Part shown: one piece after another, positions 618-20,968 of the stretch
Layout of the letters: the number at the start of each line of letters is the position of its first letter
Position numbering within the stretch: the stretch's first letter is position 1
From: Ceratodon purpureus
Lineage: Eukaryota > Streptophyta > Bryopsida > Pseudoditrichales > Ditrichaceae
DNA: 64,000 nucleotides
Direction: 5' to 3'
Assembly: GCA_014871385.1 (NCBI GenBank)
Contig: CM026426.1
Span: 41,705,779-41,769,778 of the forward strand
Program-made: the position numbers and the translations under genes
The notes under the pieces: model-generated
Databases searched by the model: none
What the model was told of the DNA's origin: nothing
What the model saw: the letters and a program-made list of their open reading frames with translations, nothing else

Positions 618-637
618 GGACGTTGCTTGTACTTCAG

Positions 638-690
638 CGGAGAGCGGAGAGCGGTGAGCGGAGATTTGGAGAGCGGAGAGCATAGAATGG
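638..690. repeat. GGAGAGC-rich tandem motif
   Basis: An imperfect run of GCGGAGAGC units ends in GAGAGCATAGAATGG. The same motif appears inverted near 18800-18833 (CCATTCTGTGCTCTCCGC). The two copies bracket about 18 kb. See the finding on a possible larger unit. Confidence 0.6.
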
Positions 691-1560: not shown

Positions 1561-1591
1561 TTAGGAAGACGTCAGAGATATTGTTGTTTCA

Positions 1592-1978: not shown

Positions 1979-2264
1979 TGGGCAACCCTAAACGTGTTAG
2001 GTTCGAAGATTAGGACATCTAATAACAAGTATATGTTGGCTGTAATAAAGGGTACATGTCAGAGGATACGAGGTATATAGTGCACTTGTTCAAGATAGAA
2101 TGTATTGAAATAGAATGCAATCAATGTGAACGACAAAGCCTTTATAATGAAAAAGTCAATACAGCTTCTATATTGCTGACTTAGTACATGGGATATTACT
2201 AAAATCATTCACTACGTGAAAAATGGCCATTGCGGAAATGGAAGTTCTAAAGTAGGAGGGCTAC

Positions 2265-5200
2265 CTACTTCTTCGCCAAGGGGTGACGTAAGATTCCACT
2301 CTCTAGGAGTAGCTTGACCTCGTTGAAGCTAAAGGTAGGCGCATGGATGAAAAGCTCGGCTTCGGGATCACGGTTGCAGACCTTCAAGAGTATGTAGTAT
2401 AGGTGCTTACAATACGTGAACTGAGTCCTGCCTCGGAACGAAGTCATCGTCTTCTTAAATGCAGGACAAGTGCAACCAGGGTAAGAACTGATGGTAATCT
2501 GGTACCGTGTGATGTGTGGAGCGACGCCCGAATCCAGCCCAATGATGCAATCGTGGCCCGGCTCAGGTATCATGGTGACGGAACGGAGGCGCGCTTTGAG
2601 GGACTCGGAGGAGCCCATGGACAGTCGCTACGCCGGATTGGGATGAGTGGCAGTGCGCTTCACCATCTTGCCGTCTCTCTTGCCTGGGTAGCGGTCAGCG
2701 TCTGCAGGGATTGGCACCGAGCTGAGATTTGCAGGGGGCGGGGCAGAGGAGAAGAGGCGTCTCGGGGAGACCGGCTTCCTCAGCGGAAGTTGAAACCCTG
2801 CTGCTTCGAGGGCAAGAATCTCGGTGAGCTTTAGGTTAGTACCTAGTTTCACTAGCCAGACCTCTAGAATGGAGGGCAATTTCTGGTCCTTTGAGTAGTG
2901 TGCAACCCATTTGCGCTTAGAGCCTTTCACGCAGCGCTCAATATCGTCGGAGCAGAAGAAGAACTCTGTCTTCTCGACTGTGTTCCTGCGATAGTTAGTC
3001 CAAAGCCCAGTGTAGGTCGGTGGAGCTGTGCAATGGGGCCCCCTGACGATTCTCTCAGTGCACTTCTTTTTCGTTTCAGCTCTTTGGGCCCAGCAGCACT
3101 TTGCAGAAAGTTTGTGAAGTCTCGAAATGTGCCACTCCTTGACGTCGACCTTGGTTTCTTCAACCGCGTTGACGTGGCGAATGCCGTCCTTGTTCACAGG
3201 TGAAGGTAGAGGGGAATCAACTTCCTGGGCAGGAGATTGGGTACCTTCTACCTCGGTGTCGTGTTCGGAGTCGTCTTCCACAATGATGGGCATTCGGAGA
3301 GGGCGAGCCATGACGGCACGTCTTGGGCCTCTTGGGCGTGAGAAGTTTGTCTTGTCCGGGCGATGAGACTCCTCGTCAGCTCCGATGGGGACGTCGGCTT
3401 TTCGCTTCTGTGAACCGAAGACTTCCGCTCCAGGCATGATAGGCTGACGGGTGCAGAACTCATCCGCGCCTGGCATATCGAGCATGGGCTTATCGAGCAG
3501 TGTAGGATTTCCCCATTTCTTCGCGTTGCGTTCGGCCATCCGGAGCCTGAGTTCCTTCTTGGACGGTCCTGTACCGCCGACGTCACCTTTAAGGAACTGG
3601 TAGTAGTTAACAACCTGTAGAAAAGCCCGAACGAAATCGTCCACGGTAGCAACGTAGAGGTCGTTCCCGTTGTTTCCTGAAGCTTGGAGCCACTTGTTAT
3701 GAATTGTTTCGGCTAGGTTACAGGTCGGCATCTCTGTGAGTTCTTCTTCCGTGAATTTTTGCAGTGTAGATAGTAGGTGACGTTAGATTCACCGATTAGA
3801 GTTTTGTAGGTTAGGGCTAGGAAACCAGTATCAAAATCATCAAAATGGAGTGCAGAAATCATACCGTGGTCATGAATCCCCCCCACTGGCGAAAGCGGTG
3901 GTGCCAGAATGACAGCCACTAATCGAGTTTGATGAGCCCGCTCTCGCCAACGACCCCGGTGGATGCCCACCATGCTCGCAACGCGTGGTACAGAGTTTCC
4001 GCCTCTGTTATGCTGGTCGCATTCTTGTACTGAGTACACATCTTCTTGTGTTGTTCCCAGAGTTCTTCGGGGAAGTGCTTCTGCGTATACGCCACCATTT
4101 TCTGAGTCCAGTGGAAAAAGCACGACCTCTCCCGGTCCTCCATTGGGTCCTCTTTGTTGCCATTGCCGTAAAGGATTCGCACTGCATTCCAATTCGCCTG
4201 TGCGTTATCCGCCATGAACCCCTTGAAGTTCGGCGCTGCAACGCCATTGTTCTCCATGACCAGGTTCAGGTTTTTCCAGAAGACGAGCTGGGCCTCCGTG
4301 TCCTCGGACTGCATGTCGCAAGTGGCGATTGTCATCACGCGGCAGTAGGTGGCGTCGTACACATGGCACGCCATCGTCGACCAGTCTTTGACGCGTTTTA
4401 CATGGTCGAACATGATCCATGCGTTCTCCAAGTCGCCAACTGCTTGCATACGGGTGACCAAGTCGACACCACTTCCCGGCCCGACCTCCGACATCTTGAA
4501 GACGAAGACTTTGTCACGCATAGATCCCTGACCAGGAAACCTATTCTCCTGGACATACGCCTAGAGACTGTTACCACAGAGCTTGGTGATACCGTCCATG
4601 ATTCCGTACCTTTTGAATTTTTTGAAGGTGGTGACTTTGTTGCGGATGTTTGGTGACGCCATGTCTTTGCAACGATCTTGAACAGGAACCAGCTCCTCCA
4701 TCGTCAGCTTCCTCGGTGGTGCATCCTCGGGCTGTAGAAGGTAGCTGCCGATGAGGAGTTTGCTCGCCTCCAGGACAACGGCGCTCTTTGTTGCTTTGTT
4801 GTTCATCTCTACCTGCTCTTCTATTAAGCTACTAATCTCTGCTTTAGAGTCTCTGTAGTCTCTAACTTTCATTGGATGATCATGTGTTCCTATGTGAATA
4901 CAAGCTCTAGTCTGATTTGCTTTGCCCACTACGTAATAAATCTTAGCCTCGCATGTAGCTACACATGATGGAGGTTCTTTACATACCTTGCATACTAGCG
5001 TGGAGTCAGATGGAGGAGGCTGATCCATGAGAAAAGCTTGCAGGGTAGAGCCTTCGAACTCAGTCTCGTTAACCTCGAAGATCTTGGGAACACGCTTGAG
5101 GAAGTCACACTCCTGGTTGCTGCAGCCCAACCATCCGACGCAGGTGGAACTTCGAAAAGAGAGTCCGAAGTCGTTTTTGATGTTTGTTGTGATGGTCTTG

Positions 5201-5946
5201 GTCCACAAGTGTCCGTCGTATCGTTTGTCCATTCCTTGCATTGACTTGGCGGCGAGCTTAGAGGATCCTGCAGCAGCTGGGGGCAACTCAAAAAGAACCG
5301 GACCATCAAACTTCGCAGGCAAGTACTCGACTCTCTCGTGTCTAATAGTGGAATAGTCTATCTTCTTCAAAATGTTTTTCAACCCACGCGTCTTAGCAAT
5401 CTCTTTAAGGAGCTGAACAATGCTAACTGTGACCTGGGACAATGGACGAGACACAATGGAAGGAGGAGCATCTGCGTGGACCTTGGGCACCGACTTGACG
5501 GGACTGACTTCGTCATCAGAAGAGAGAGATATGACTGTCGGAGGGGGAGGTTTCTCTACGTCTGAAGTTTCGGTTTTAGGCTCAACTTTGACCTTGACAT
5601 CACGAGGTAAGGGAGTCTGAGTTGTGCAAGTAGAAGAGCGACGGGGGGTGAGGATCTCAGTGGATGCAGCCATCAGAGAATCAGTAAGACCATAGACCCT
5701 ATAGGATCCAGGGAGAAGTCTCCACTGCAACATATTGTTCTCATCCCTCAGTGAAGGTTGCCCGAGGGTGTGGGTAACCTCCGCAGTAACGTCATCAAAG
5801 ATCTCCTCCTCTATACTGATGGAATCCTCACGGAAATGGAATCTGAGACTCAGGCGAAGAGAGGAAACTGTAGCTAGACCATCGTCATCTACGCGAAACC
5901 TAAGAGGGATGCCCATGCCTTGGGCGTACAGACAAACCATCCCCAT
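2265..5946 (-). pseudogene. MULE (Mutator-like) transposase with SWIM zinc finger
   Basis: One long minus-strand frame from the ATG at 5946 covers a whole MULE transposase. The N-terminal 200 residues are acidic and disordered (SLSSDDE). They are followed by a Cys/His region ending in GTHDHP, typical of the FLYWCH/WRKY-GCM1-type domain of MULEs. The transposase core comes next: YDATYCRVM (first catalytic Asp), FMADNAQANW (second) and CFFHW. After a probable intron (donor near 3864, acceptor near 3735) comes CNLAETIHNKWLQ, a disordered middle, and a SWIM zinc finger, CTCPAF..CKH, near 2405-2510. Three TAG codons interrupt an otherwise continuous frame, at 4561-4563, 3919-3921 and 2628-2630; in each case the same frame resumes at once. 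The element is therefore recent but probably dead. I could not identify its terminal inverted repeats. Confidence 0.88.
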
Positions 5947-6480
5947 ATTCGCAGGTAACTCAGGGAAGAAGGGAGAAGAGTGAATGTGCTACCGAAGTGG
6001 TATCCCGAGAGAAAAGTGAGAGGATTGATGCATCGGTGTTGATCATTATATTGAGGTTGGAATGTCCATGTGGACGACTAGATAATAATTCATCCTGTTA
6101 GGCAACGAATGTATGATTAAAGAGAGACGGCGCTAACTGATTAGAATGTTGCTTTTTGCAGGCCCAAGTTTACGAGGTAGGAGTTTTTAGTACTAAGCGA
6201 AGCATTTAATATTTGAATCGTGGAACCGATTCTATTTGATATGAAGTTTGGTAACTTTAGAGTGAGCCGTCAGTTGCTCCCATATTTAATACAAGTATTC
6301 CATTGGGTGATAAAACCTATTATTATTTTGTGGGCTTCTTTTTTTCTTCTTCCAATTTAGATTGATCACATGAACTTTAAATCTAAATGCATTTATTTTT
6401 AGTTTAAATTAAATTAAGTAGTTTAAGCATAAGGTAAGTATTTAGGACTGAGAGAGATGGGTTGGAGGTTTGGGATATAT
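5947..6480. other. Spacer between MULE and ParB/methyltransferase gene
   Basis: No convincing reading frame. It should hold the MULE 5' end on the minus strand and the promoter of the rightward gene. A TATA-like word (GATATATAAG) lies at about 6474-6483. Confidence 0.5.
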
Positions 6481-6485
6481 AAGAT
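6473..6485 (+). promoter_or_regulatory. Possible TATA box of the ParB/methyltransferase gene
   Basis: The word GATATATAAGATG lies about 60 bases before the first in-frame ATG (6544). The spacing is plausible for a plant promoter. It is only a word match. Confidence 0.35.
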
Positions 6486-6543
6486 GAAGGGTAGTTAGAA
6501 GAAGAGCTATTTTGTGACAAGAGTTCTCACTTTAGTTAGACAC

Positions 6544-6816
6544 ATGAAGGAGTGTGGACAATCATCTCCCTCCACTTGTGTCACTCGTAAATCTAGAAGA
6601 AAAGCATATGGTACATATTTTACGAATAGGAGAGCGAGGAAGAGGAGAGAGTCACGTAGAAAGGCAAACTCTAGAGGCAACCTCTTAGGAGCACCTCTGA
6701 AGGTTCGAGGAGCTGGGCTGCCATTGGCAATTAAATTTTGTAGCATTCGTGAACTCATTCTGGAGTCTATAGTAGAGGTAGAAGAGGAGGTTTTAGTGGA
6801 CAACTTAGTTGAGCAT
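6544..6816 (+). pseudogene. Exon 1, left half (basic N-terminus)
   Basis: The first in-frame ATG, at 6544, follows a TAG about 45 bases upstream. The product has a strongly basic patch (RRARKRRESRRK) that could be a nuclear localisation or nucleic-acid-binding segment, then an acidic stretch (EVEEEVLVDN). The frame runs into the family X element at its AGCAT target site. Without the element it continues in phase at 10345 (VEH then WEHDV). Confidence 0.6.
6812..6816 (+). repeat. Target-site duplication AGCAT (left)
   Basis: AGCAT directly precedes the TGTG terminus of the family X element and is repeated at 10340-10344 directly after its TACA terminus. This fixes both ends of the insertion to the base. 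Confidence 0.9.
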
Positions 6817-7406
6817 TGTGAAAAGTGATTTCCACGGTTGGCACACCGGAATACTAATTCCGGTAGAAAAAAAATGATAAAAATTAAAAATTTGTGTTAG
6901 GAACACGGAAGTATTACTTAGAAAAGTGTAACAACCGGTTAAGACGGTTGGCTGAAGGAATAAGGAAACCGGAAGAGCATCCAGGTGAGATCCGGTCATC
7001 GGAAGTCGAAGGAGAGGAAGCACCGTCCCTGAGACGGAACCGTGACCCAGCGGACTTAGGGTAACAGCCGGAGGGTGCGATTCACGCGGGAAAAGTGGCT
7101 GCAACCATTAAAGCGCCGCCGGCCGCGACCGTTCAATTAATAAAGGCTACGACCGTCCGTCATAATGAGCTACAAACGGGCGAGAGTAAGTGCAGGTATA
7201 AGAGGAGGAAGAGCAACCGTGCTCCTCCTTTCTTTTGTCATTTTGTTGAGCGCTGGATCCTTGTGTTCCTCGGCGGAGTGCGCAGGTTGGGATTGTGACG
7301 GTAGGAGAGAGACGGTGAGACGGAAGTGTTTCCGTTAGTCGAGGGATTGTGGTGAGGACCGTGCGTGCAGGTGCTACCGGAGTGACAGTGACGAGGATTT
7401 AGCAGG

Positions 7407-9280
7407 ATGGGTAGGAAGGGGAAAGAGCCGGCGGAGGAGGGACCGTTGTTGAAGGTACAACGGGTCATGCCGTTGATGCCGGTAGACAACGGAGAGTGGG
7501 AGCTCCTCCGGACCGCCTTAGAGGTCATGGGCTGTGAGTTACTATTGGACAAGGCGTGGGGGTGGAGACAGTCCCTTCCGGCACAAGAGATTCTCGTCAA
7601 GAACCCCGACAATCGTGGAACCATCCAGGGAGAGCCGGAACAATGGACGGCACAAGACTGGAGCGATACGTACGGCTTCACCAACGTTGGGGAGGTTTTG
7701 GTACCGGAGGCCCGGGATTTCGTGTGGAATTATATCACGGGGTCTGGAGACAAGAGGGAAGGGTGGGACCTGGACGACATCAAGGATGCGAGAGCCCGGA
7801 GGGTGGTAGGGTTTATGAACCCTATTTTCCATCCGGAAAAGCCCAAACGGATCACCATCAAATGGGCGTCTATTTTCCTAAGAGCCATGGACGGTGAGAT
7901 CTCCCTAGACTGGGGCCTCATGATAAAGACGATAGTCGACCGGCGGGTAGCCAACCTCCGGAAGACCAAGAAGCAGGCCACCTGCCTTCCGTCTTTCCTC
8001 GTCCACCTCTACCGTCACCGGGGACTGTTGAACCCTAAGGAGATCCTGGAGTATGACGAACTGAAGAGCATGCAAAGGTACGCTAAACCGGAAGAGGTGT
8101 CTGATCAGGAGGATAATGACGACTGTATGGAGGTCTCACCCACGCCGGCTAAGAGACCCCGGCCCAGCCCGGAGAAGGGACAGCCGTCCGGATCACCTCG
8201 GACTCCCACCCCTACCAAGCGGAACCTGAACACGGACGTCCTCAAACCCACCGGACCACTGGACCACACTGGGGACCCGTGCCAAGACTTAGTCAACCTT
8301 TTGGAGCAGGTGTCGGCGTATGCCCAGTTCCTACAGTCAACTAGGCAGCTGGAGGGCCGGTTGGCGAAGGAGGTGGTTTCACTTACTGGCACTAACCGGT
8401 TGGAAGAGTGCCTGGTTATCCTTCGCAAGCACCGGGACCTAGCCAGTCTACAGGCCAAGCACATTGACCAGATGGAGCAGTACTGGGAGAGGATCAACAA
8501 GCTCGAGCAGGAGGTGCATGATGCCCAAAAGGACTTCAATGACGCCCGTGACCGGGCAGCTCATGCCATCCAGTCGGTTGTAGAGGTCAAGGCCACCTTA
8601 GCCCTTCCGGTGGATGTGGCCAATCAGTGCGCCGTCTACCAAGCCTTCTTGACCCGTCAGCCGGATCCGGCTCGGAAGTTGATCGTGAAATTCATGCACG
8701 ACCGGACGCAGGTGATGAGGGACACTTGGTTGCAGATGAGACACTTCGTGGAGATCATCAGCGCCGGAAAGGACGGCCCGTCAAGACCACCAGAGCCACC
8801 GGCAGATCGAGAGGAGCCCAGACCATCGGCACCAACCATGGGATCGGCACAGGTACTACCTTTAGCCTCTCCGGTACAGTCGACCATCCGGCCAGTGCAA
8901 CCGGACCCTGGACAACCGTTGGAGGATCCTCTCCCGGACACTTGGACAGTTTGCACAATCTGCCCTACCCGGCTGGACTTCAGACTGTCAACCCCGAGAA
9001 CATCTCTTTGGAGGCGGCCCAAGGTCCACCACCGGAAGACTATGTTCCGGTACAGGGATCTCCGGAACATATCCAGGTGGATCTCGGCGTAACCCCGGTG
9101 GCAGCACGATCTCCCTCCCCGGCGGTCCAAGCAGGACGAGCCCGGAAGGCCATCGACCAGCCGGCAGCTGATACCCCGGAAGAAGGCCCCTCGCTAAAGA
9201 GGCTGAAGAAAGGAGGACAGAAGAAGGAACGGATGGATGGAACCCGGCACAGCCCACGGTTCGATAAGAACAAGGAGTAG
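7407..9280 (+). pseudogene. Family X single ORF, copy B, one frameshift
   Basis: Starts MGRKGKE at 7407. It reads as the 623-residue protein of copy C up to about 8940, where one base is missing (ACTT against ACCTT in copy C); the frame then shifts and the correct reading continues to the stop at 9278-9280. The region after residue about 100 (FMNPIF, a helical segment with WASIF, a Lys-rich NLRKTKK, then LPSFLVHLYRHRGLL) resembles the domain named putative plant transposon protein (Pfam Transposase_32). A Pro/Ser segment with KRPRPSPEK follows, then a coiled coil (residues about 330-400) and a disordered Pro-rich tail with a basic end. No catalytic motif is visible; a Gag-like or DNA-binding structural role is a guess. 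Confidence 0.8.
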
Positions 9281-10339
9281 AAGTTAGGATAAGGACCGGA
9301 TAAACTGGCAGCTACTAACGATGGGGCTCAAGTACACCCGGCTGTCAATCCGGATAGATAGCGGCACTAACTAGGAATAGAAGGCGGCCAGCGGTCCCGG
9401 ATACCCGGGATCCAAGATCTGGAATTTCTGGATCTCGGTTGGCCACTTGGTTGCTTTAAGCCCGATAGGTTTAGTACTTAAGCTGGACGTTTTTCCAAGG
9501 CAGGGGCCTTGTTTTGTACGCCGTTTTGTTGTTGCAATTGAGAATATACTTTTGATTTTGTTGTGTCAACCGGCTGGCTGACGGGTCCGTTACCGTAATG
9601 GTTTGTTGGTACTATTATCTTCAGTAGTGTTCCGGAGGAGTGTTGAACAGTGGGATAATTTGGAGAGCGCCCGGAGAGATTGGGAAGGTGTCAAGCGTCG
9701 AGTGTTGACGGTTTTCAGTCCCGGAAGGAGCCTGGAGGATAGGAGAGACGTACTGCAACAGAGCTGGTAGTCTTAAGGACACGGAGGGCCGTGTGTACAC
9801 CGGGATCCGGAAACGGACCGGTCGCTTCCTGTAGATGGGATAAAAGCCGGATTTCCTACTGCGAACCAATCCAGAAGGGAGATGATATAGTTAGGATACC
9901 ATACAACCGTAAGGTGATGTCGTTGTAGTATGAATTTCGTATCCATAACCGGCACTGAGTAGCTATCCGGACCGGTACCTAGCCATACGGAAGGATTATT
10001 ACTCCACTCTCCGGGTGGTAGATAGGAACAGTGGGGTGTCCAGCCACTTTAAGTCACGGGACGGTGGAGAATCCAGCCACTTGAAAGGATAGACGGATCA
10101 GTGGGAACCGGCCACTAGTCTAAAAAGCCGGAAAATAGGAACGAGGCAAAAACTACCGGACCAGGCGGACCGGTCGTGAGACGGAAGACAGTTGGATTCG
10201 AGTCGTAATTTCCGTTATGATCTAAAAGGAGGAAAACTATAGGTCTTCGTGGGAACGAACACGGAGTGGTTTACTTTGGAGGGTAGTTAGAGTGAATTAA
10301 GTGCCTTCCGGAGGAATACGGGTACCACGATGTGCTACA
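9281..10339 (+). other. Family X 3' noncoding region
   Basis: About 1 kb with no conserved frame but strongly conserved between copies B and C. The fragment at 47-617 comes from this part. Rich in CCGG and CCGGA words. Its last bases, GTGCTACA, form the element terminus. Confidence 0.8.
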
Positions 10340-10344
10340 AGCAT
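10340..10344 (+). repeat. Target-site duplication AGCAT (right)
   Basis: Second copy of the 5-bp target site of family X copy B. Confidence 0.9.
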
Positions 10345-10512
10345 TGGGAGCATGACGTAATAAGTAGCGGAGAAAAAGAGATAGAGATGACGGAAGAACT
10401 TGGGTTCAATTCCAGTCCGACTTTAGGGACACCACAACCTTCTTTCGGTTTGAAGGAGTGTTCGACAAGAGGATCGGATTGACAGTCGGGCGACCATTCT
10501 AACACAGATGTG
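10345..10512 (+). pseudogene. Exon 1, right half
   Basis: Continues the frame of 6544-6816 in phase after the insertion (WEHDVISSGEKEIEM). One TGA lies at 10480-10482; CGA to TGA would explain it. A donor-like GTAAGT follows at 10513. Little can be said about function; it is acidic and Ser-rich. Confidence 0.55.
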
Positions 10513-10622
10513 GTAAGTTTCATAATCAATACATTAAAATATGCTAAATCTAAATTATGTATTTTTGAGAGTTACATTCAATTCTATGTAATGTCTTCGC
10601 GTTTTATTCTTTTACTGTTTAG

Positions 10623-11204
10623 AATTATGATGCCGCGACAAACTGAGTGTTGTCTAGAAAAAGGGATCCGAAGTAGTAATACTCGGCATAGTCTTAAATA
10701 TTTGCGCAGATTGTCGATTGGTTTAGGATTGACCAAGAGGTTGTAGAGGAAAAGACGCCAGAAGTGGATGCGGGCGAGAAGTCAGAACTTGAGACATTGA
10801 TAAAAGTGGCTCGGAGAGCGAGACGCAAAATTATGGAGGCGGGCGAAGGTGGGGAAGCATTAGCTGCGAGACGAGAGGGTCAAGGGGACTCGGGAAGCCC
10901 ATCGCAAATGAGTGTCGACGACAACCAATCGCAGGGTAGGATGGCGGGGCCCGTAGAAGACATTGAGTGTGAAGAGGTTGAGAATGTGGATAGAGGCCGT
11001 GGTCGAGGGAGAGGTGGAGGTGCTCGTGGGAGAGGGAGAGGACGAACTCGTGGGAGCAGTGCCTGTGAGGCAGCATCCAAACTCGCATCCGTGGCGACTG
11101 ACCGTGAGGACGAAGAGATGGAGAGTGAGCGTGGACCTGAGCGTGTGGAGGAAGAGATGGAGAGCCAGGGCGGAGAATCCGATCGAGCACCGGCCACAGA
11201 CGAG
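10623..11204 (+). pseudogene. Exon 2: acidic and Arg-Gly rich region
   Basis: An acceptor-like CTGTTTAG precedes the exon, and GAG|GTAAGG at 11205 ends it. The product includes DWFRIDQEVVEEKTPEVD, then an RGRGRGRGGGARGRGRGRTR block (an RGG-box type region often used for RNA binding) and repeated acidic DREDEEMESE units. Ala-rich coding-like sequence with the repeated phrase ANHIA/ANHVA continues to about 11790, with a TAA and a TGA. Confidence 0.5.
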
Positions 11205-11870
11205 GTAAGGGTTGCGGGTTTTGTTGATGATGATATGTGGGGGGCCGCGAGCTTGGTACTGGGGGATTGTCTGTGAGTAGCAAATAGATCCGCAAGGTGT
11301 GAGGTTAAAGGTGCGTAAGACCCTGTTGTCAATGCCCCAAGTGGTGAGCTGGGAGTTGCGATTCCGATGCCAGACGCTGCTGCAAAGCAAGAGCTCGATG
11401 TTGCGAACCATATAGCTGCAGATGCAGTGAATACCGAGATTGGGGGTACGACTCTTGAAGCAGCCCTGGCCGCATTGAGTGAGATTGGGGTTTCGGAGGT
11501 GGCAGCAGCCATGGCTGCATGGACAGTAGTGAAGAATGCAAAGCACCCTACTGCCGTTGCTGCGAATTGAAATGTTGGGGATACGATTCTAGTACCAGGC
11601 AAGGCCGCGAATACTTCACCTACCATTGTCCCTAAACGTGACATTCAGGTTGCGAATCACGTAGCAGATCATTCTATTGAGGTGGGGGCGGATTCGGAGA
11701 TTGGGGCTGCGGAGGCTATGGCCGCAAGCATTCAGTCCATGGCCGCGGAGGAGATGCCCCTCATGAGAAGGGGGCTGCTCATAATTTGATTGGATTATAA
11801 CTCTTGTTTTTTATTGTTATATGATGTATTCATTTCAATTCTTATAATTGGTATACTGTATGTGTTGTAG

Positions 11871-11930
11871 GAGTTCACAGATCAAGTCACTGCGACTGAA
11901 GCTGATGGCCCTACTCCTGCAGAAACAGAG
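11871..11930 (+). pseudogene. Small exon, 60 nt
   Basis: Sharp borders, TTGTAG|GAG and GAG|GTAATT, enclose 20 codons (EFTDQVTATEADGPTPAETE). It is in phase with neighbouring exons. Confidence 0.55.
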
Positions 11931-12046
11931 GTAATTTAATCTTATTTGCCTTCTGTATTGAACATAGCATAGTATATTAAACTTCCTAAAGTAGTTATGT
12001 AAACTAAATCGGTAATTTGACATTGTCTTTGTTTCTTTGCTTTTAG

Positions 12047-12400
12047 GTATTCTCAGATGCACCTTTGTCCATCAGTTCTCCTATCACAGTGATCAATGTT
12101 TCCGACCTCTCGGATTCATTTGATCAGTCCTACTATAGGTGTGATATAGGAAACCCTGTAGGTTTAGGTAGTGGACCTCTCGAGGTCCACTCTTGTCTGT
12201 ACATGCCTACCTCTCCGGCCTATGAGCCTACATCCCCGGGCTACTTCCCTACTTCTCCACGACTTGGTACCCCGCCGATGTCTCCACCTTCTCCTTCCTC
12301 GCCTATTAGAGCGAGAAGGCCAGCCCATGTTGTCTTCGCCCTCCCGGCAATACTTCCATGCCCAGTGCAACAGACGAGGCGTTTTTGGAGGAGGCGGCGT
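12047..12400 (+). pseudogene. Exon with RNA polymerase II CTD-like heptads
   Basis: The acceptor TTTTAG|GTATTC precedes it. Residues coded at 12200-12262 are three consecutive heptads, YMPTSPA, YEPTSPG and YFPTSPR, followed by Ser-Pro rich sequence (PPMSPPSPSSP). These fit the YxPTSPx pattern of the RNA polymerase II C-terminal domain. The frame breaks soon after, and a better continuation is found in another frame. It could mimic CTD phosphorylation sites, or be convergent Pro/Ser low complexity. Confidence 0.55.
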
Positions 12401-12601
12401 CATTGGAACTGTAGACAGGCTAGGGAGTATTATAGCCGTGCTCCACGTACATAGTGTACTACTTTCTACTATTGATGATGATTGGTTTTCCAAAAGCGAT
12501 GTATCAGTACAAGAAGCTATTGTTCTATTCTTCTTCGTAATTGTTTCATTTATATGATCCTTGTCTTGGAATCAAGTCTAAACATGTATGACTTATGGCA
12601 G

Positions 12602-13185
12602 GTAACTCAGACATAGGATATGTTGCCAGCGCCATCTTGTCATACTGATTTGACGAATGCAGTGGACAGTGAATTGGGACATCGTGTACAGCACAAAGTG
12701 GACTCCATCGGCGTCATCAACAATCTCCGAATACTTCCAAAGACAAAGTCGCGTATCCTAGTTCTCCTTTGCAGAATGCTCTCAATGGCAAGAGTGCGAC
12801 CTGTAGGAGAAATGGGAGTTCAACATTTGGAGCGAGAGTTTGTCAAAGGCTATAGAGATGGAGACCGAGTCATGTACATTTCCATGTACAACCACAAAGA
12901 GAAGACAGCCAATGTCACTGAGGAGATCAAGGCTGAATGGAGCCCTTGCTGGCAAAAAGTCAATGATGCTTTCGAAGATGAGCTGTTGGCTGACTCGGAT
13001 TTGAAGGAGTTCTCTGGGAAAATGTTCTATGTCTAGGAAGGTAACCATTGCCTTGCCACATGGTTCAGACATATCAACAAGCTTCAGAGCGACGATCCAG
13101 CGTGGCACATTTCTGTGCATTGCATTGTTCTTGACCCACGCGGTCATGTTGGAAACCTTCTTCATGCCATGCATGACATCAACTA
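12602..13185 (+). pseudogene. ParB/sulfiredoxin-like domain exon
   Basis: After GGCAG|GTAACT the frame gives ARVRPVGEMGVQHLEREFVKGY, then KMFYV, a TAG at 13034-13036, EGNHCLATWFRHINK, HISVHCIVLDPRG and HAMHDIN. The sequence VxEGNHxLATW resembles the DGxHRxxA signature of ParB/RepB/Srx-type domains, and the 'VRPV...LEREF' segment sits where ParB proteins set up that site. In this copy the expected Arg is Cys and the residue before Glu-Gly is a stop. ParB domains bind DNA or hydrolyse CTP in prokaryotes; activity here is unknown. A C-terminal methyltransferase partner, as downstream here, supports the reading. Confidence 0.5.
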
Positions 13186-13280
13186 ATAAGAATTAACTCC
13201 CTCTACTTTGTCCACACCTCTTGAATGCCGATTCAACTCGTACTTTATGCATATTATTAACTCCCGTCCATTTGTTCAAG

Positions 13281-13765
13281 TCTACGGAAAATGATCACGT
13301 GAAGAGTAATATTCCGGCAAAACTTTATCGTATTCGCTCCTTAGGTGTCATGAAATTGGAGGAATTCAAGGATCTGCTTACACCACAGGAGTATGCTTTA
13401 TCATTGAATCACAAACCAGCTACTCCATCCTGGTTTACCTTGCCAACAACAGTATTCATCACTTTTCTTTATCGTGTAAGCACTTGTTCCTCCCTCCCTC
13501 ACGCTTCCATTCGACAATTGAATTACGCTGCTTCATAAAGTCGCTAAAACATAACTCTGTGTTCCAACGAGAAATTGTGGTTGCTGCTGACGAAGCTGCC
13601 AGAATCTACAAAGAGACAATACCCACTGAAGACCAAACCGCGACTGGTGTTTGGGATGCCATGACTGCGGCTTCAAACAACATGGTGGAATCCATTAAGA
13701 GGAAGGACTTCACCAAGTACTTGGCGATTGCAAATCCCAAGAACGGTGACGACTTCCTCAATGAA
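13281..13765 (+). pseudogene. Two middle exons, helical
   Basis: 13281-13475 ends at CGT|GTAAGC; about 13540-13765 ends at GAA|GTGAGA. The products are helical and mixed charge, with KLEEFKDLLTPQEYALSL and AADEAARIYKETIPTEDQ. No known motif. No stop inside either exon. Confidence 0.5.
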
Positions 13766-13945
13766 GTGAGACCCTTACCATGGTTGAGTTTAGAATTTCG
13801 TTTGACTACAACATAATTGAATTCATGTTTATAAAGCTTTCTCTACTTGTTGCAGATTAATCGGCATTTCAGTGACATCCCTAAACCTGAGATGTCACTC
13901 GATAAGCTTCAGAAGATTGTACTAGCAGCCGTTGAGGCCAAATAC

Positions 13946-13949
13946 AAGG
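13946..13949 (+). repeat. MITE target-site duplication AAGG (left)
   Basis: AAGG here and at 14705-14708 flank the MITE. CAAGG as a 5-bp duplication is also possible because the element ends in G/C runs. Confidence 0.6.
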
Positions 13950-14704
13950 GGGGGGGGGGGGGGGGGGGGGGAGCACAATAAAGTGGACCACAAAGTGCAA
14001 AATGTGACCACTAACAAGTGAATATGAAGTGTGCTGTTTTTGAAGGCTCAAAGCTGATTTTGGGGATTTTGGTGTAGTTTTTGAGCATTTTAGTCACTTT
14101 CTAAGGTGTCACAAGGTATTTTACACACACCTTCATAAAAAAAACATCTCGAATTGAAACTAAATTTGACCACTAGTTCTAAATCATCAAAATGAACCTT
14201 TCTAAAGTCTTGATTTCTTCATTTGGGGCCCTCTATTGTCTTTTAATGATGTTTTTTTTCAATTTAAAAAACAATGTTCGGTGAAAAAAAAGTGACAAAA
14301 AGTATCGCGGAAGAGACCCTCTTAAAAAGCATCCTTGCGATACTTTTGGAACCCTAAATCAATCAATGAGTATATGAATTGACTATTTTAGAATACCTTT
14401 TAAACATACGGAGGGCCCGGCAAAATCAAAAGTGATTTCGGACAAAACCCTAAACCGTTTTGTTCACTTTTCCAAATGAGTCCATTCACTTTGCCCGGGT
14501 TCGATGTCTCTGTTTTCCATTGTAAACTCAATGTCCTCTCTCGCAACTTTGGGAAGTTGAAGAAGATCAAGTCTACTTTCCGTATCCCAAACTTAATCAT
14601 GCATTGACATAACATAGATCCCACTTTCCCTAGTATTTACAGAAGGGGCTGAAATTGGTGAAAAGATAAGCACTTTTTTGGTTCACTTTATTGTGCTTCC
14701 CCCC
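13950..14704 (-). mobile_element. MITE family Y, copy 1
   Basis: About 755 bases with terminal inverted repeats of about 30 bp: GGGGGGAAGCACAATAAAG at one end and its complement at the other. It is homologous to 21818-22555 in the opposite orientation. No transposase. The outer G run of the left end has grown to 24 G (13948-13971). The 74-codon frames inside are shadows. Confidence 0.85.
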
Positions 14705-14924
14705 AAGGCTCGTTGGTTGAGGTGGTGGAACTTATCTCTAAGTTCCCGATTGTCTTACAGATTTCTACCACTTAAATTCAAGGATACCGAATTTGACCCA
14801 TGGTTGAACAAGGCCTCATTCTGGGCTGGGGTACAGTTTCTTAAAAAACCTTTCCAATTACCTTATCCATTATTCTCTTCCTCGATTCATTCTCATTGCT
14901 AATGAATTGAATTCTGAATTACAG

Positions 14925-15166
14925 TTGGAGGAAGCCGTCATCAACGAATTTGAGGACATATGCAAGGCGGAGAACCTCGTTATCAATTAGAAGGCATTTC
15001 CTGAAGTCCAAGAGCCGGGCGATTATGTGGAGAGTTCACGTATTCTATTGTGGGACAAGGCCTTCCCTACGTTCATTGGAAAATTGGATGATAAGCCCTT
15101 CGACAAGAAGTCCATTTTCGCTAAATTCCCTAGAACCGCTCAGGTTGTCAAGCGGGTTACTTACCG
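14925..15166 (+). pseudogene. Exon with one TAG
   Basis: Opens after AATTACAG and closes at CCG|GTACGT. The product contains FEDICKAENLVIN, TAG (14988-14990), then KAFPEVQEPGDYVESSRILL and KRVTYR. The TAG is one C-to-T step from CAG. Confidence 0.55.
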
Positions 15167-15255
15167 GTACGTTACTTTCCTTTGTCAGATTCAAATTCCA
15201 TAATGAGCTCTCTGTATCTTTCTCATTCTAACCTTCTCCATATTGGTTTCCTTAG

Positions 15256-15927
15256 GTACTTTAAGCGCGAGCCTTTTCTGAAGGGGGCCATCAAGGTTTA
15301 GCAGCTCCCTAAGTACTTAAGTGCCTGGACGTCGAGAACCTCGGACTAGTGTATGTACTCTCCCCAACACTTGAAAAGGTACAAAGCTCCTCACTTGGTT
15401 GAGGGATGCAGGTATCTTGATTGCACTCGTGGTTTCACGATTGACTAAGAGGCGGACGTCAAGACTCTACATGATGGGTGTGAGGTTGTGGTGGAGGACT
15501 CCGTGGATGATCAGAAGGTCGGGAAGGAGAGCAGGATCAATCTTCTGCTCCTCCACTGAAGAGAGGGAGAGGAAGGCGACTGAAATCTCTACGTTCTCAG
15601 TGAGAGGCATCACAGCAGACTAGGGCGAAGTCTTCCGCGCCAGGTCAGAAGGCACCAGAGCCCTCTCTAGGTAATGTCGTTACGAACCCTTCTCCAACTT
15701 CTTCGCCGGCTCCTTCCTCGATCAGTGCTTCCGAGGTCACTAGAGGTCTCCTTGAGCAAAGGAAGACCAAGTAGTTCCCGCAGACTACTTCTTCTGCTGG
15801 AACTCCGCTATCCACACAGGTTTATGTCATCAACTCCTCTATGGATTCAGTTATGCTTCGACAGAAGGAGCTCTCAGACATGGGTGGCGATCAGGAATGG
15901 AACAAGGCTGTAGACATCGTTAGAAAG
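15256..15927 (+). pseudogene. Eroded exon before the methyltransferase
   Basis: Begins after CCTTAG with YFKREPFLKGAIKV. It contains TAG at 15299 and 15347, TAA at 15446, a frameshift near 15500, TGA at 15601 and TAG at 15772. It then reads clearly through a Pro/Ser/Thr-rich linker into QKELSDMGGDQEWNKAVD and closes at AAAG|GTATGA. The linker probably separates the ParB-like half from the methyltransferase half. Confidence 0.5.
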
Positions 15928-16015
15928 GTATGATCCGTTGCTTACTGCTTTCCCTTCAATACGTACATTACTGTAAATCTTATAGTGTCTAACTCTGTTT
16001 TCATGGTTCCTCTAG

Positions 16016-16987
16016 TTTGGAGCAGGCGGCCAAAACCGCATTTCTCATCGTTGCAAACAGCAGAATCACTTGGGATTCGACTTGATCATTGCCGACATCC
16101 TTGAGAATCTTCCCGTCCCTTCGGTATCCGATCCCCCCTACGTCACTCCATCTTGGAACAAATGTCATAAGGAGTATTTGGAGGACCTCTTCGAATTTGC
16201 AAGACATTACTTGCAATACGATGGTGCTCTTTGCATAATCCACAACAACGACCAAGACCTGGTTGGGCATATTTCTGTACAGGCTAAGGACAATTCCTTC
16301 GTGCAGCACCGAGACTGGTGGGGCTTCCATGCACTAGGCTTGGCTCACCCTACGATCCCCGGCTCATTGGTATGTACATGATAATCATTCCTTGTCTTTG
16401 CATTGTGCTAAACTTTCTTAATATTTATACTCACATATTTTGGTGTCTCGCAGTCTCTTCGCTTCTGGGTGCGCGTCTTCATCCGTGATGGCCATCCCCC
16501 ATCGAAGTTTTCTTTTCAAATGAAGAAATCCGATGTCGTATACATCGACCTCCACATTACCGAGAGTGATGCCATTCTCAACTTCACCGATTTGGAATTG
16601 CAGCACATGAATGGGGACGTACGGTGGAGAGGGCCAAGGGAGATGATGCAGACCATAATTGAAGAGATGTCCAAGCCCGGAGACATAGTCTTTGAGTGGA
16701 TGGCTGCAACAGGTAATCTTATATAAACTGTTTCTGCATTTCCGTTCCTATGATTTTCTCCACAGGGTCTTAATTGTTTATTCTTGTGCTACATGTTTCA
16801 GGGGCCTCCATCAAGGCTTGCCAGAGTATTGGTCGCCATATTATAACTTGTGAGGAGGACGAAGCCATATTCAACGCCCTTCTCAAACCATATATGGCTA
16901 CGTCTTCCGCCATGGGCCCTCCTAAACATCCTAGACCGGCAGCAGTTGAAGAAGCACCTCCAAAGAGACCACGACAAGATAAGTACT
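16016..16987 (+). pseudogene. DNA amino-methyltransferase domain (three intact exons)
   Basis: Exons 16016-16369, 16454-16712 and 16802-16987 join in phase without stops. Early on comes FDLIIAD, then SDPPYVTPSW, then a helix and YDGALCIIHN. This fits motif IV (DPPY) and the following strands of the N6-adenine/N4-cytosine methyltransferase family (N6_N4_Mtase). Late in the domain, KPGDIVFEWMAATG then ASIKACQSIGRHIITCEED fits motif I (the SAM-binding 'GDxVxDxFxGxG' strand and 'lGRxxxxxE'). Motif IV before motif I is the beta-class order. The motif I loop is not ideal (EWMAATG rather than DPFxGTG), and DPPY lies 12 residues after DLIIAD, so activity is uncertain. A basic tail (PPKRPRQDK) follows. 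Confidence 0.65.
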
Positions 16988-17093
16988 GTAAGTTCTACTT
17001 TACATTTTCTAAATTCGGGGTTAGTTCTCTTTGCTTCTTTATCGATTCCCTCTTCACCCACTCATTCTTACCACTATCGATTTTCTCTTGCAG

Positions 17094-17367
17094 AGTAGTT
17101 GCAGCAACACCGCCACGTAGGCCAACACCCGTGTGTATTCCATCGTGGCGTCTTCATTCCAGCCCAATTCAGTCTTATGTACTTCCGGACTATGCAGAGG
17201 GCTTAGCACAAGCGCTTGAATCTGGTGCACTTAGATATGTTCCTAGTCGGCCCACTAGTTTTGATCCCAGGGCCCTTCTATTTGTCGATGAAGAGGGTGT
17301 AGAAGGAGATTTTGAGTCATCGGGTTCTGAGAGTGGAAGTAGCGATTGTAGCATGTTCTCAGTTTGA
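17094..17367 (+). pseudogene. Last exon, Pro/Ser-rich and acidic tail
   Basis: Follows TCTTGCAG. The open frame ends at a TGA at 17365-17367 after a Ser/Glu/Asp-rich C-terminus (SSGSESGSSD). The frame does not join perfectly to 16987, which suggests a small indel or another splice site. Confidence 0.45.
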
Positions 17368-17712
17368 AAGAGGCCTCCGTCTATCATTCTTTTCATTTGA
17401 TTTGATTTGATTTCAGTGAAGTTGATTACATACTCCATCGTCTACTCTACTGCAAACCACTTAAAGTATTCATGATTCTCATTTCTAGTTTATATTCGTG
17501 TATGTAAAGGTCTACAATTGCAAGTCTTTTTAGCTCTTAATTCTCATATGCTTGAAGGAAAAACCACTTCAGTGATGAAGTTATTTTAGTCTGCAAATTC
17601 TGTTCTGCACACTAGACAATACTAACATGAACAACTAAAATGCTCAAAATATATAGAGTACTCTAATTTTTTCCTTTATCAATGAACAAAATCTCACATT
17701 TCCATAGCCATG

Positions 17713-18264
17713 TTACCTATTCTTGGGAGAGATCCAGATACCATCTCTCGAAGAAATTTTCTCTCCTTCCGGCACATCCAAGACCTCATTCCCATTGGCC
17801 CATAGCAATGTCCTCAACTGATCTAACTCAACGCAACTAAGTTCTCCAAGGGACGCTGTCTCTAACCTCTCATTGTAAATTGCAGTTGCAAGTTTCCAAG
17901 AACTCCTAAAAACACTCCAGTTGATGTTGAACCGATTAACTTTGTATTCGTCCTTCGGACTCCAATGGCGACCCTCATACGTAAAGTAATCCCACCTCGC
18001 TAGCCGAAGGCATGCGTATTCAGGACTGCTATCAATCTCACGGTTCCACCTCTTCGACACAGCACGAGCGTTCTCTACGTCTTCAAACGTGATTACCGTC
18101 GGGGGAGTCCAACCCTGCATTGCACTACTACCTATATGATCCCACGGGTTAGGCCCATCCGCCATCCGCTTCAGCAAATCCTGTAAAATCATTTCACAGG
18201 CAACGACCTCAAATGAATCGCCCATACCTTCAAACAACTCCCTAGCAAGTACAACAGAAACCAT
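17713..18264 (-). CDS. F-box-like protein, 183 aa, intact
   Basis: A complete minus-strand ORF from the ATG at 18264. Near the N-terminus, EMILQDLLKRMADG, then after a loop ENARAVSKRWNREIDSSPEY, resembles an F-box (the 'a..VsKrWn..i.s' end is the clearest part). The rest has short helical stretches (LSCVELDQLRTLLW) but no recognised repeat. F-box proteins pair with SKP1 in ubiquitin ligases; here that role is inferred from a weak match. The ORF is uninterrupted, unlike its neighbours, so it may be a working gene or a young transposed copy. It is convergent with the methyltransferase gene. Confidence 0.5.
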   Translation of the reverse strand: MVSVVLARELFEGMGDSFEVVACEMILQDLLKRMADGPNPWDHIGSSAMQGWTPPTVITFEDVENARAVSKRWNREIDSSPEYACLRLARWDYFTYEGRHWSPKDEYKVNRFNINWSVFRSSWKLATAIYNERLETASLGELSCVELDQLRTLLWANGNEVLDVPEGEKISSRDGIWISPKNR

Positions 18265-18296
18265 TGAGCTAATACAACTTCAAGGACGTATGCCAA

Positions 18297-18306
18297 GGTT
18301 TATATA
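18297..18306 (-). promoter_or_regulatory. Possible TATA box of the F-box-like gene
   Basis: On the minus strand the word TCTATATAAA lies about 35 bases before the ATG. If used, the 5' leader would be very short. Confidence 0.4.
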
Positions 18307-20968
18307 GATCATCGCTTGACACTTAAGCTAGGAATGGTCTTATCTAAAGACGAAGAATTCTTCGACCAAGACATGCAGTCTGACTTGGTATACATCTTGG
18401 TTTCAGCAACTCCATTATTGTAAACGAACTCTGAAATATTCTACGAAGTTTTAAGACCATTTCTTCTTGCTTGTTTCGAGTTTTTTTTTCCTTATAATTA
18501 TCTACATTATCTATTCAATCTTTACCGCTGTGATTTAAAAACATCATGCAGGAATAGTCGTATCTACATCCAATAAGGGACCAAATCTAAAGGATTGTTT
18601 GCATGACGTCATCATGACATCGGCCCTAATTTGTAACTCAGTAAACAAACTTAAGAAATTCTTACCAGAGAAAACCCTGAATTCCACGGTAATATACTCT
18701 TTCACTAAAATAAGTAACAAAATCATGCCTTATTTTAGTAACTTTCCACGGTTATAGGGTCTACTTTGCTTTTGAAAATTTGGCTAATTGTCAATTCTGT
18801 GCTCTCCATTCTGTGCTCTCCGCTCTCCGCTCACATACAAACTTTCCCCGACACTAGTGCAAGATTATTTTTTACACATAAATACATTCACATGAAATGT
18901 AAAGAGACAGACCTTTATTCCATTGAAAACCAGAATCCTAAACTAATGCAAACATCACGACTACAATCCAAACTGAGACATTGATCACATTCAATTCAAT
19001 TACCATTAAAATGTTTTAGAATAGACAAGTGTTTAACCTTTTAAAAATGATGGAAATATTTACTCTTATTCAAGAAATGCTAATCAATCAAAACGATGTT
19101 CTCGACTTAAATAATAGGCATGTGAATTGTCTCAAACTTAATCAATTCAATAAACGTTCTACCCTAACTATTATTCATACAATATTAAAAGGTTATAGAA
19201 TAAAGTAAATTGAAGAGTTAATTTAAATAATTCTAAATATTAAATCTTATTTAAATATGGGACCTTTACGAATTTAAATGGCATATGATTTTTTTCCAAA
19301 TCTATGAAGTTTCTATATGACACAAGACAAAACTACTATGGCCACGCAAAAATAGAGTTTGAGAAATATTTTGAAATTTTATACTTATAGCATTTGAAAT
19401 TCTTACATCTGTAGCAATAAATCATACGGTGCTCTCAAATATATATATTTCATCTTTTATTATTTGTTAGGTCTATAATAATTTTATCAACAGGAATTTT
19501 TAAACATGCATTGAAAATAATACAATATTTTAATAACATACTTTCCTAACTTATATTCTTACAAGTTCAAAAGTATTAAAATGATGTAAATACATAAATT
19601 TAGATTAATCCAAATATGTAATCTTATTTAAATTATCCAAATTGTAAGTCTTATAAGATTGATTCTCATAGTTGTTTGTAGCAATTGACATTCTAAACAT
19701 AGCATTGTCAAAATCTTGTTTACGATATCGGATTCATATTATAAACACATAAATCTCTTTCAACTTCTACGACTCTTGAGTAAAAATTTATAATGTAATG
19801 TATTGCTTGACTACAAAAAGAGTTGTTCAAAAAATCAAGGCCCTAAATTTTGTGTTATCTTTAAATACAATAAACTTGTATATTTGTGTAATCCTAATAA
19901 AATAAATATAAATATGTCTTAAGATAGTATTTCGTCTAATTCAGCGAAATATGTCTTTTATCTAATAAACATGAAATTTTTTATATTAAGCAATTTCTAC
20001 ATGTTTAATTTTATTTTTGATGAAAAATATTAATTAAGGAACTTGTATATTTGTTATTTAAAAAATGTGCTTATGTTTAAAATATGGAAGGAAAATCTAA
20101 AGAGCATTTTTTTATATGTAATGAAGATTAGGTACTTCACAATTATTTTTGATATATAAACATCCATTTGTTTGCATCAAAAATCCAAAAAATGATTTTC
20201 CATCCTTTTTAGATTTTCATTAAACTTAGATAGGGTTGGGCAACGACGCCCTCCATTCACACTAGAGTTACGAATGGGAGACACAGTTGGCCTAACCCAC
20301 ATGAGTCCTTAGGTCTCTAATAGTAATTCCTATTAAAACCAAAAAAAACAGGTTTACTAAAACTTATGGAATTAACATTGTGGAGTCTAAACACCGAATT
20401 GTCTATCTTTAAAGTAATTTTTTAAAGAATGTAATTATCACTTTCTCATTGACCAAATCACATTAAAACAAATGAAAACAAAATGGTTTCTGTGATATCC
20501 AATTTGCAATTCTTTTGAATATCAAAATTGCAGTTCAGTCAATTTGATATAAAAAAAACCAATATTACACAATGCAAGCCGGATTTCAAATATTGCAATA
20601 CCTATATACATATATGTATATGCATTTTTTCCTAATCATTATAATTCGAATCCGAATAAATAAACCCTAAATAACTATCTAGCCGATCTTAAAAAGGATG
20701 TGGGAAAACACATACAATAAAGTAATATAAAAACACTTGTGCTTATAAAAAATAAATAATGAACTCAAGATACCTGTACTTAATAATTAAAAATAATCAT
20801 AATATAATCTCATTGATTTCATAATTTCAAAATGTATTTATCTATTTATATAATCTGAATACGAAACGGAGTTTATATTTGTGTATATAAACATATACAT
20901 ATTCCAAAAAAAATAGAAATTGTAATATACCTACACCATTCAGCGCAAAATATATACATGAATTAAAA

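Follow-up and report, generated by a model that had tools for sequence, protein, structure and literature searches.

The window, a stretch of 64,000 nucleotides of Ceratodon purpureus DNA analysed at its full length, contains a decayed copy of a DNA transposon that spans ~618 to 18849 and most likely lies on a sex chromosome (Table 1). A rightward chain of exons within it is the accessory gene of the element (gene B), and there is little doubt that the element consists of gene B and a divergently placed, transposase-like gene A set between terminal inverted repeats. The favoured explanation of the whole is that it is probably a Mutator-like DNA transposon of ~17–20 kb that is abundant in the C. 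purpureus genome. The intron-containing chain proposed in the sequence-only reading holds up, with the last four exons (16016 to 17367) joining in frame on splicing, although the unit is larger than was proposed and extends to the two ends given above.

Table 1. Features of the window copy of the element.
Feature	Position	Strand	Remarks
Left terminal inverted repeat	618..690	.	Degenerate; outer bases ~618-635 uncertain
Gene A, probable Mutator-like transposase, decayed	2265..5988	-	ORFs 4561-5988, 3919-4560, 2628-3782, 2265-2627
Gene B exon 1, basic N-terminus (MKECGQSS...)	6544..6828	+	Counterpart in C4 copy
Foreign insertion 1, 3.5-kb repeat	6817..10339	.	Occupies site of the 201-bp tandem array of other copies
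RG-rich open stretch, candidate part of gene B only	10698..11219	+	
Gene B short exon (...TPAETE, then GT donor)	11871..11930	+	Start inferred; by eye, by analogy with C4
Gene B exon with Pol II CTD-like heptads (YMPTSPAYEPTSPGYFPTSP)	12047..12454	+	
Gene B conserved segment exon (claimed ParB-like)	12602..13186	+	Stops at ~12614, 13034
Foreign insertion 2, MITE-like	~13950..14704	.	Poly-G/C terminal inverted repeats; apparent 3-bp duplication AAG
Gene B linker exon	14928..15170	+	One stop; counterpart in C4 copy
Gene B linker exon	15257..15930	+	Stops and frame loss; counterpart in C4 copy
Methyltransferase-like domain, motif IV half	16016..16369	+	Motif IV position reads DILE
Methyltransferase-like domain, motif I half (GDIVFEWMAATG)	16454..16712	+	
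Methyltransferase-like domain, end of motif I region (ASIKACQSIGRHIITCEED)	16802..16982	+	
Gene B C-terminal exon, acidic/Ser tail	17094..17367	+	
Right terminal inverted repeat	18790..18849	.	Ends AACTTTCCCC at 18849

Ends, copy number and gene content of the element

At the left end of the element a fragment of an unrelated repeat stops at 617, and AGCGGAG repeats from ~636 onwards align with the left end of another copy, C4. The right terminus is common to the window copy and copies C3, C4 and C7, and an inverted repeat of ~63 bp is present between the two ends of C4 (one copy aligned end to end). The fuller copies (n = 3) are 16.8–19.6 kb long and are flanked by target-site duplications, read by eye as CTGTTGATTC, GCTCCTTGTG and TGCTCGTTGC, each of 10 bp, in 3/3 copies examined; the range given for Mutator-like elements in PMC6446971 is 8–11 bp. 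No duplication is detectable at the window copy because its left flank is another repeat.

The element is present many times over. The right-end 25-mer has 868 genome matches with up to three mismatches (reversed control 0), the methyltransferase part of gene B has at least 395 exon-level matches, and the conserved segment and gene A have 1862 and 2799 genome candidates, respectively, with matches for 150/150 (the window itself included) and 60/60 of those scored. Among the matches listed, the exact right end is located on the gene B side in 22 of the 25 gene A copies with contigs covered (control 0), a divergently placed conserved segment lies beside 17 of 60 gene A copies (controls 0 and 1), and for 23 of the 39 conserved segments the exact right end follows on the same strand, 2–8 kb further downstream (control 2). 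Methyltransferase matches, again among those listed, are found on the divergent side of 3/60 gene A copies and downstream of 14/150 conserved segments, and the exact right end is near 6/29 of them; some elements may lack the methyltransferase part.

Gene A contains a SWIM pattern, CxCx(18)CxH, ending near 2403, and the surrounding region of the window (1186-6236) is 92% identical to C4 at the DNA level. In C4 the gene A ORFs are 741 and 500 aa, and many of the gene A copies among the matches listed are intact. A Pfam search of gene A at E up to 1 gave no MULE match, the sole match being a weak one to DUF6301, and the Mutator-like label therefore rests on the SWIM pattern, the duplication length and the inverted repeats.

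In the region of gene B exon 1, positions 6510-6793 of the window are a 74% match to C4 exon 1, which ends at a GTAAGT donor (by eye). The two insertions proposed earlier are both real: the first has a second copy at 25106-28622 on the minus strand (88%) and no match in C3, C4 or C7, and the site of the second is uninterrupted in C4. No counterpart of the RG-rich stretch was found in C4. The CTD-like heptads also stand as part of the same chain; their exon scores just below the PF05001 cut-off (E 0.0011, 19.6 bits, cut-off 20.3), and at least one Y-x-PTSP unit is present upstream of the conserved segment in 28/30 loci, including L045, the window's own locus. In addition to the two stops within the conserved segment, in-frame stops occur at about 14988, 15299, 15347 and 15446, and the reading frame breaks down near 15.5 kb. 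Reassignment of the stop codon was considered and rejected, because other copies have this exon open. Inspection by eye shows tails like that of the C-terminal exon in some sister loci, L004 and L008 among them.

The methyltransferase-like domain and the conserved segment

The spliced methyltransferase domain of the window (236 residues, first three exons) matches PF01555 with E 3.8e-7 and 30.7 bits (cut-off 26.7), which bears out the claim of a prokaryote-type amino-methyltransferase in an intron-bearing eukaryotic gene. The match is confined to the motif I half (residues 179–230); no single methyltransferase exon scores above the PF01555 cut-off, and the motif IV exon, searched by itself, has no Pfam match in L001, L004 or L008. 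At E up to 1, 8/8 alignment members match PF01555 (best 1.2e-9), and the profile of this part matches DpnA (1.1e-7) and CcrM (1.2e-6). Searches of viral contigs with the methyltransferase exon and with a sister methyltransferase returned 6 and 4 pattern matches, respectively, none confirmed as a relative.

Motif IV of N6/N4 DNA methyltransferases is (D/N/S)PP(Y/F). Across 31 copies, comprising those closest to the window and those retrieved, the aligned motif IV column reads DIPE (17), DILE (5, the form found in the window), NIPE (3), EIPE (3), DIPK (2) or DVPE (1), such that DPPY is present in 0/31, although the motif IV Asp is kept in the window copy. The sequence-only reading had picked out a DPPY at ~16129 (SDPPY) as the catalytic motif, but the homology alignment places it in a different column, in which DPPY occurs in 1/31 copies, whereas the DPPY of the bacterial relatives L079–L082 (4/4) aligns with the window DILE. 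We therefore reject this assignment, and a DPPY found by eye needs an alignment check. Motif I is likewise FEWxAxTG in most copies, instead of DPFxGSG. Among eight sister loci, the six with the motif IV exon in view have D[QT]P[FY], a form that might still be active. Relative to C4, dN/dS of the methyltransferase part is 0.29–0.44 (median 0.35) and below 0.5 in 30/30 comparisons; constraint is weakest on the motif IV exon, at 0.51 versus 0.22–0.23 for the other two exons in a single comparison (C4 with L014).

The conserved segment (~190 residues) is the most constrained part of gene B, with dN/dS against C4 of 0.10–0.17 (median 0.13 versus 0.35 for the methyltransferase part; 30 comparisons). 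The proposal that 12602-13185 encodes a ParB/Srx domain found no profile or sequence match: Pfam gave no ParB_N (PF02195) in the segment, a genome-wide search gave 0 candidates, and hhalign against six bacterial ParB_N domains returned probabilities of 0.05–0.22%, with scores reached or beaten by 150/200 and 196/200 column shuffles, whereas 6/6 true ParB_N domains used as a positive control were at 97–100%. There was no tblastn match to phages at E up to 1 and no relevant match among PDB sequences (one unrelated ribosomal sequence at E 0.15), and a viral contig search gave 17 pattern matches, none confirmed as a relative. ParB/Srx domains have the order strand-helix-strand-GxxR-helix-strand, and in a single-sequence model of low confidence (mean pLDDT 41.8) EGNHR is followed by a helix and then a strand; by motif order only, the segment is plausibly ParB-like. 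The check set in the sequence-only reading, a profile match of this stretch to ParB/Srx, went against the ParB proposal. Since no ParB match was obtained despite a working positive control, we can only infer that the segment may bind DNA.

An intronic tandem array and possible roles of gene B

In copies C3, C4 and C7 there is a 201-bp tandem array that includes a perfect inverted repeat of 10 bp. The array lies within the first intron of gene B in the copy read and is absent from the window copy. An exact 26-bp repeat of the array occurs 25, 13 and 21 times in C4, C3 and C7, respectively, and has 1251 genome matches with up to one mismatch (control 0). L041, which comprises most of the C4 array, has no tRNA or Rfam match. 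Tandem arrays homogenise, so a conserved repeat says little about binding.

With its catalytic motif changed, the gene B protein may help the transposon in another way, and we tentatively favour, by analogy, an anti-silencing or self-binding role. The conserved segment, possibly ParB/Srx-like, would bind DNA of the element itself, for which the 201-bp array and the inverted repeat in it offer a candidate site; a methyltransferase fold with an eroded catalytic site would be a DNA- or cofactor-binding scaffold and not an efficient methylase; and the protein would counter host silencing, like VANC for the Arabidopsis VANDAL elements, or assist transposition. In a more elaborate version, the gene B product would be a pseudo-methyltransferase, ParB-like and CTD-mimicking, that arose from a modification enzyme of bacterial type; it would recognise a parS-like inverted repeat arrayed within its own intron, hold the element in a transcribable state and be convergent with VANC. 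This version seems to us quite unlikely.

Alternatively, gene B could aid transposition itself (e.g. integration, by analogy with maize mudrB) without a silencing role. PMC6446971 describes extra ORFs, some antisense, in several Mutator-like elements and mudrB as apparently required for integration, and gene B is constrained and gene A intact in many listed copies, but the intronic array would have no obvious use and we regard this as somewhat unlikely. A working DNA methyltransferase that marks the transposon itself with N6-methyladenine or N4-methylcytosine is unlikely: the PF01555, DpnA and CcrM matches, the constraint on the methyltransferase part, the D[QT]P[FY] of the sister loci and the self-modification proposed for a brown-algal protein (PMC12477816) all favour it, but these must be set against the lack of DPPY at motif IV in all 31 family copies compared, the altered motif I of most copies and the weaker constraint on the motif IV exon in the C4–L014 comparison. 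A domesticated host DNA-modification gene, to which an intron-rich, multidomain coding sequence under constraint would be suited, is contradicted by the high copy number (matches scattered by the hundred, many of them close to transposon ends) and by the stops in the window copy and is rejected as extremely improbable. Of the earlier suggestion of a domesticated or mobile gene only mobility stands, as the chain is an accessory gene that a high-copy transposon carries.

In this abundant moss transposon family a methyltransferase fold is kept under selection with its catalytic motif changed. This bears on whether transposon-borne prokaryote-type amino-methyltransferases in eukaryotes write 6mA/4mC or do something else, a question that the candidate binding array and the selected fold with its changed motif make testable.

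Comparison with known systems

Gene B is a variant of a reported type of accessory gene, because ParB-methyltransferase accessory genes have already been reported in algal transposons (PMC12477816). Like the element here, the algal transposon is ~20 kb long and carries, on the opposite strand to its transposase, an accessory gene with a DNA amino-methyltransferase domain, and its accessory protein is described with a ParB-like domain, the likeness to gene B being by description only (PMC12477816). In contrast to the algal system, and also compared by description, the moss element makes 10-bp duplications in a land-plant host, its gene A has a SWIM pattern, and its gene B has a degenerate motif IV, CTD-like heptads and a tandem array.

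The Arabidopsis VANDAL/VANC system (PMC5735166) resembles the element in having an accessory ORF, tandem repeats in accessory-gene introns and variable protein regions with tandem peptide motifs. The targets of VANC occur as tandem repeats, some of them within the VANC21 intron. VANC has DUF1985 and DUF287, unlike gene B, and the two are likened by layout and not by kinship. According to PMC6446971, Mutator-like elements have 10 bp duplications, inverted repeats and, in many groups, a SWIM finger, as here, and some include an additional antisense ORF in an arrangement like that of gene B; the element described here differs in its 17–20 kb size, its methyltransferase-like accessory gene and a transposase lacking a Pfam match. 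The Beta-class N6/N4 methyltransferases DpnA (5hfj) and CcrM (6pbd) are like gene B in profile and in the order of motif IV followed by motif I, whereas in gene B the catalytic DPPY is replaced and the domain lies inside a long, intron-bearing protein.

Transposon copies and the window

The chain of gene B exons is a transposon gene. Gene B lies on the plus strand and diverges from gene A, a minus-strand gene for a probable Mutator-like transposase, and the two are assigned to one element because similarity between the window and a fuller copy on contig C4 covers gene A (92% identity), parts of gene B and the right end (74–95%). The C4 copy and two others, on contigs C3 and C7, share a common right terminus and likewise a common left terminus, and 10 bp target duplications flank all three (read by eye); their lengths are 19,558 bases (C4) and, from coordinates, ~19.3 kb (C7) and ~16.8 kb (C3). 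A spliced query of the methyltransferase (MTase) part of gene B returns at least 395 exon-level matches in the genome, and the conserved segment, an upstream exon of the same gene, matches in 150 of 150 candidates scored, from 1862 genome-wide.

The layout was tested genome-wide on the matches listed, namely 60 for gene A, 150 for the conserved segment and 133 for MTase exon 1, together with 100 listed exact right ends that extend only into part of contig C5. On the contigs covered, a right end lies on the gene B side of gene A in 22 of 25 listed matches (control 0). Of the 60 listed gene A matches, 17 have a conserved segment beside them in divergent orientation (controls 0 and 1). An exact right end follows the conserved segment downstream in 23 of 39 of the matches listed (control 2). 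Linkage of the MTase part is weaker among the matches listed: an exact right end accompanies 6 of 29 (control 1), 14 of the 150 conserved segments have a listed MTase match downstream, and 3 of the 60 gene A matches have one on the divergent side. Either the MTase versions that follow many conserved segments are too divergent to be among the matches listed, or there are elements without the MTase part.

Several gene B exons of the window copy contain stops. The heptads, the basic N-terminus and the two insertions described in the sequence-only reading are all real. Heptads resembling the Pol II CTD occur in the transposon protein and could act as a polymerase-tail mimic that recruits host factors; 28 of 30 loci, the window among them, have one unit or more. 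The MITE-like insertion is bounded by terminal inverted repeats of poly-G/C and shows an apparent 3 bp duplication (AAG); its uninterrupted site is visible in the C4 copy. A 3.5-kb repeat is present twice in the window, on opposite strands and 88% identical, and a third end fragment abuts the left end of the transposon at 617/618.

Contig C6, which contains the window, is 110,524,308 bases long, or 30.5% of the 362,488,568-base assembly; the remaining large contigs in view measure 16.7–29.0 Mb. In a review (PMC8000587), each of the two sex chromosomes of Ceratodon purpureus, U and V, is put at >100 Mb, with a total of ~30% of the 360-Mb genome, and we infer that C6 is a putative sex chromosome. 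It holds 82 of the 133 listed MTase exon 1 matches (window included) and 43 of the first 50, a share biased by the ranking of these matches on similarity to a C6 copy.

Coordinates of features in the window and of the arrays on other contigs
Feature	Location	Remark
Window	G000:C6:41705779-41769778	
3.5-kb repeat, end fragment	49-617	
Gene A	1186-6236	Similarity to C4 copy
3.5-kb repeat	6817-10339	
CTD-like heptads	12200-12259	
Conserved segment	12602-13186	Synonymous divergence over 12617-13183
MITE-like insertion	13950-14704	
MTase part	from 16016	Synonymous divergence over 16016-16982
Right end of transposon	to 18832	Similarity to C4 copy
3.5-kb repeat	25106-28622	
Array	C1:18331109-18337155	MTase match C1:18326991
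Array	C1:28244987-28248442	MTase match C1:28240868
Array	C2:1067483-1079013	MTase match C2:1082984
Array	C2:19299491 onward	Partly listed

The methyltransferase part

Splicing joins the MTase exons in frame, and profile evidence bears out the N6/N4 methyltransferase half of the sequence-only reading: the spliced domain of the first three exons scores 30.7 bits against PF01555 (cut-off 26.7), a threshold that none of the window exons reached when searched singly against Pfam. Eight sister loci (L001–L008) were first found by PF01555, seven of them on contigs other than C6, and have open MTase exons and, where in view, a common layout of linker, MTase and acidic tail (by eye). Close similarity within the pairs L002/L003 and L004/L005 makes the sister loci look mobile and recent.

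The motif IV exon is visible in six of the eight sisters, all but L006 and L007, and reads DQPY in L001, DQPF in L002, L003, L004 and L005, and DTPF in L008. When the window, relatives and sisters were aligned with four bacterial enzymes (L079–L082), the bacterial DPPY (4/4) fell over DQPY, DQPF or DTPF in all four sisters used; the window family has DILE, DILE, DVPE and DIPE at this position. A DpnA profile alignment places motif IV identically, with that stretch alone scoring 4.6 bits (not significant); the significance of the DpnA match stems from the motif I half. The SDPPY earlier taken as motif IV sits further on, in a region that is gapped in both the sisters and the bacterial enzymes. 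In that column, the 31 copies counted (the window, C4 and 29 more, the nearest listed) have DPPD (14), NPPY (10), NPRY (2), DPPY (the window alone), and NPTY, DPRD, DSPH and DSPD once each. The motif I region is FEWxAxTG in most copies, as against DPFxGSG. We conclude that the methyltransferase fold is correct and its catalytic motif degenerate, though some residual activity may persist.

The conserved segment

Compared with the C4 copy, dN/dS is 0.10–0.17 (median 0.13, 30 comparisons) for the conserved segment and 0.29–0.44 (median 0.35, 30 comparisons) for the MTase part, in a set that includes decayed copies, which inflate the values, and that leaves out stop codons. Single pairs without C4 give 0.18 (L048 and L052) and 0.48 (L013 and L014), respectively, and by exon, in one comparison (C4 and L014), the motif IV exon has 0.51 and the other two 0.22–0.23. 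Gene B looks mosaic in history, because synonymous divergence between the window and C4 is 1.51 in the conserved segment and 0.34 in the MTase part, which suggests exchange between element families.

The order of the elements and an EGNHR motif in the conserved segment recall ParB/Srx. Searches with the segment of Pfam, NCBIfam, PHROGs, PDB and phage genomes (tblastn), and a genome-wide search for PF02195, gave no ParB support, and in profile–profile comparisons with six bacterial ParB_N domains column shuffles did equally well or better in 150/200 and 196/200. This negative is informative because the same method recovered 6/6 true ParB_N domains at 97–100% probability, each held out against the rest; the control slightly lowers the odds of the favoured explanation and of a ParB-like self-recognition system. 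The ParB half of the sequence-only reading, which had itself proposed profile matching as the check, is by its own criterion unsupported, all sequence tests having failed. A ParB identity is nonetheless kept alive as a hypothesis by an algal ParB–methyltransferase transposon accessory protein (PMC12477816), whose gene arrangement is similar to that of the gene B element. In passages of PMC12695648 and PMC8885841, neither ParB nor moss occurs. The literature searched was mostly open, and among the papers examined there the algal one (PMC12477816) alone has this layout, so we do not claim that the family is undescribed outside that literature.

The intronic array and VANC

Exon 1 of gene B in C4 runs up to a GTAAGT donor, and the exon after it starts at ~12566 of the joined C4 stretch (by eye); the intron between them holds 27.4 copies of a 201 bp unit, which typically contains CCCTACTGTC-GTCACA-GACAGTAGGG. 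This 26-mer occurs exactly 25 times in C4, 13 in C3 and 21 in C7, and has 1251 matches genome-wide with up to one mismatch (reversed control 0); the window copy contains neither 26-mer nor array. Three of the four arrays among the 26-mer matches listed are upstream of MTase matches and share their orientation in all units but one, and the fourth, along with three single matches, has no listed MTase match beside it.

Repeats bound by VANC, the anti-silencing protein of Arabidopsis VANDAL elements, are also partly within accessory-gene introns (section 9 of PMC5735166), as is the 201 bp array in gene B. Because of the intronic array and this likeness, we favour a mechanism in which the gene B protein would bind its own element's array, and so might counter host silencing as VANC does, or aid transposition.
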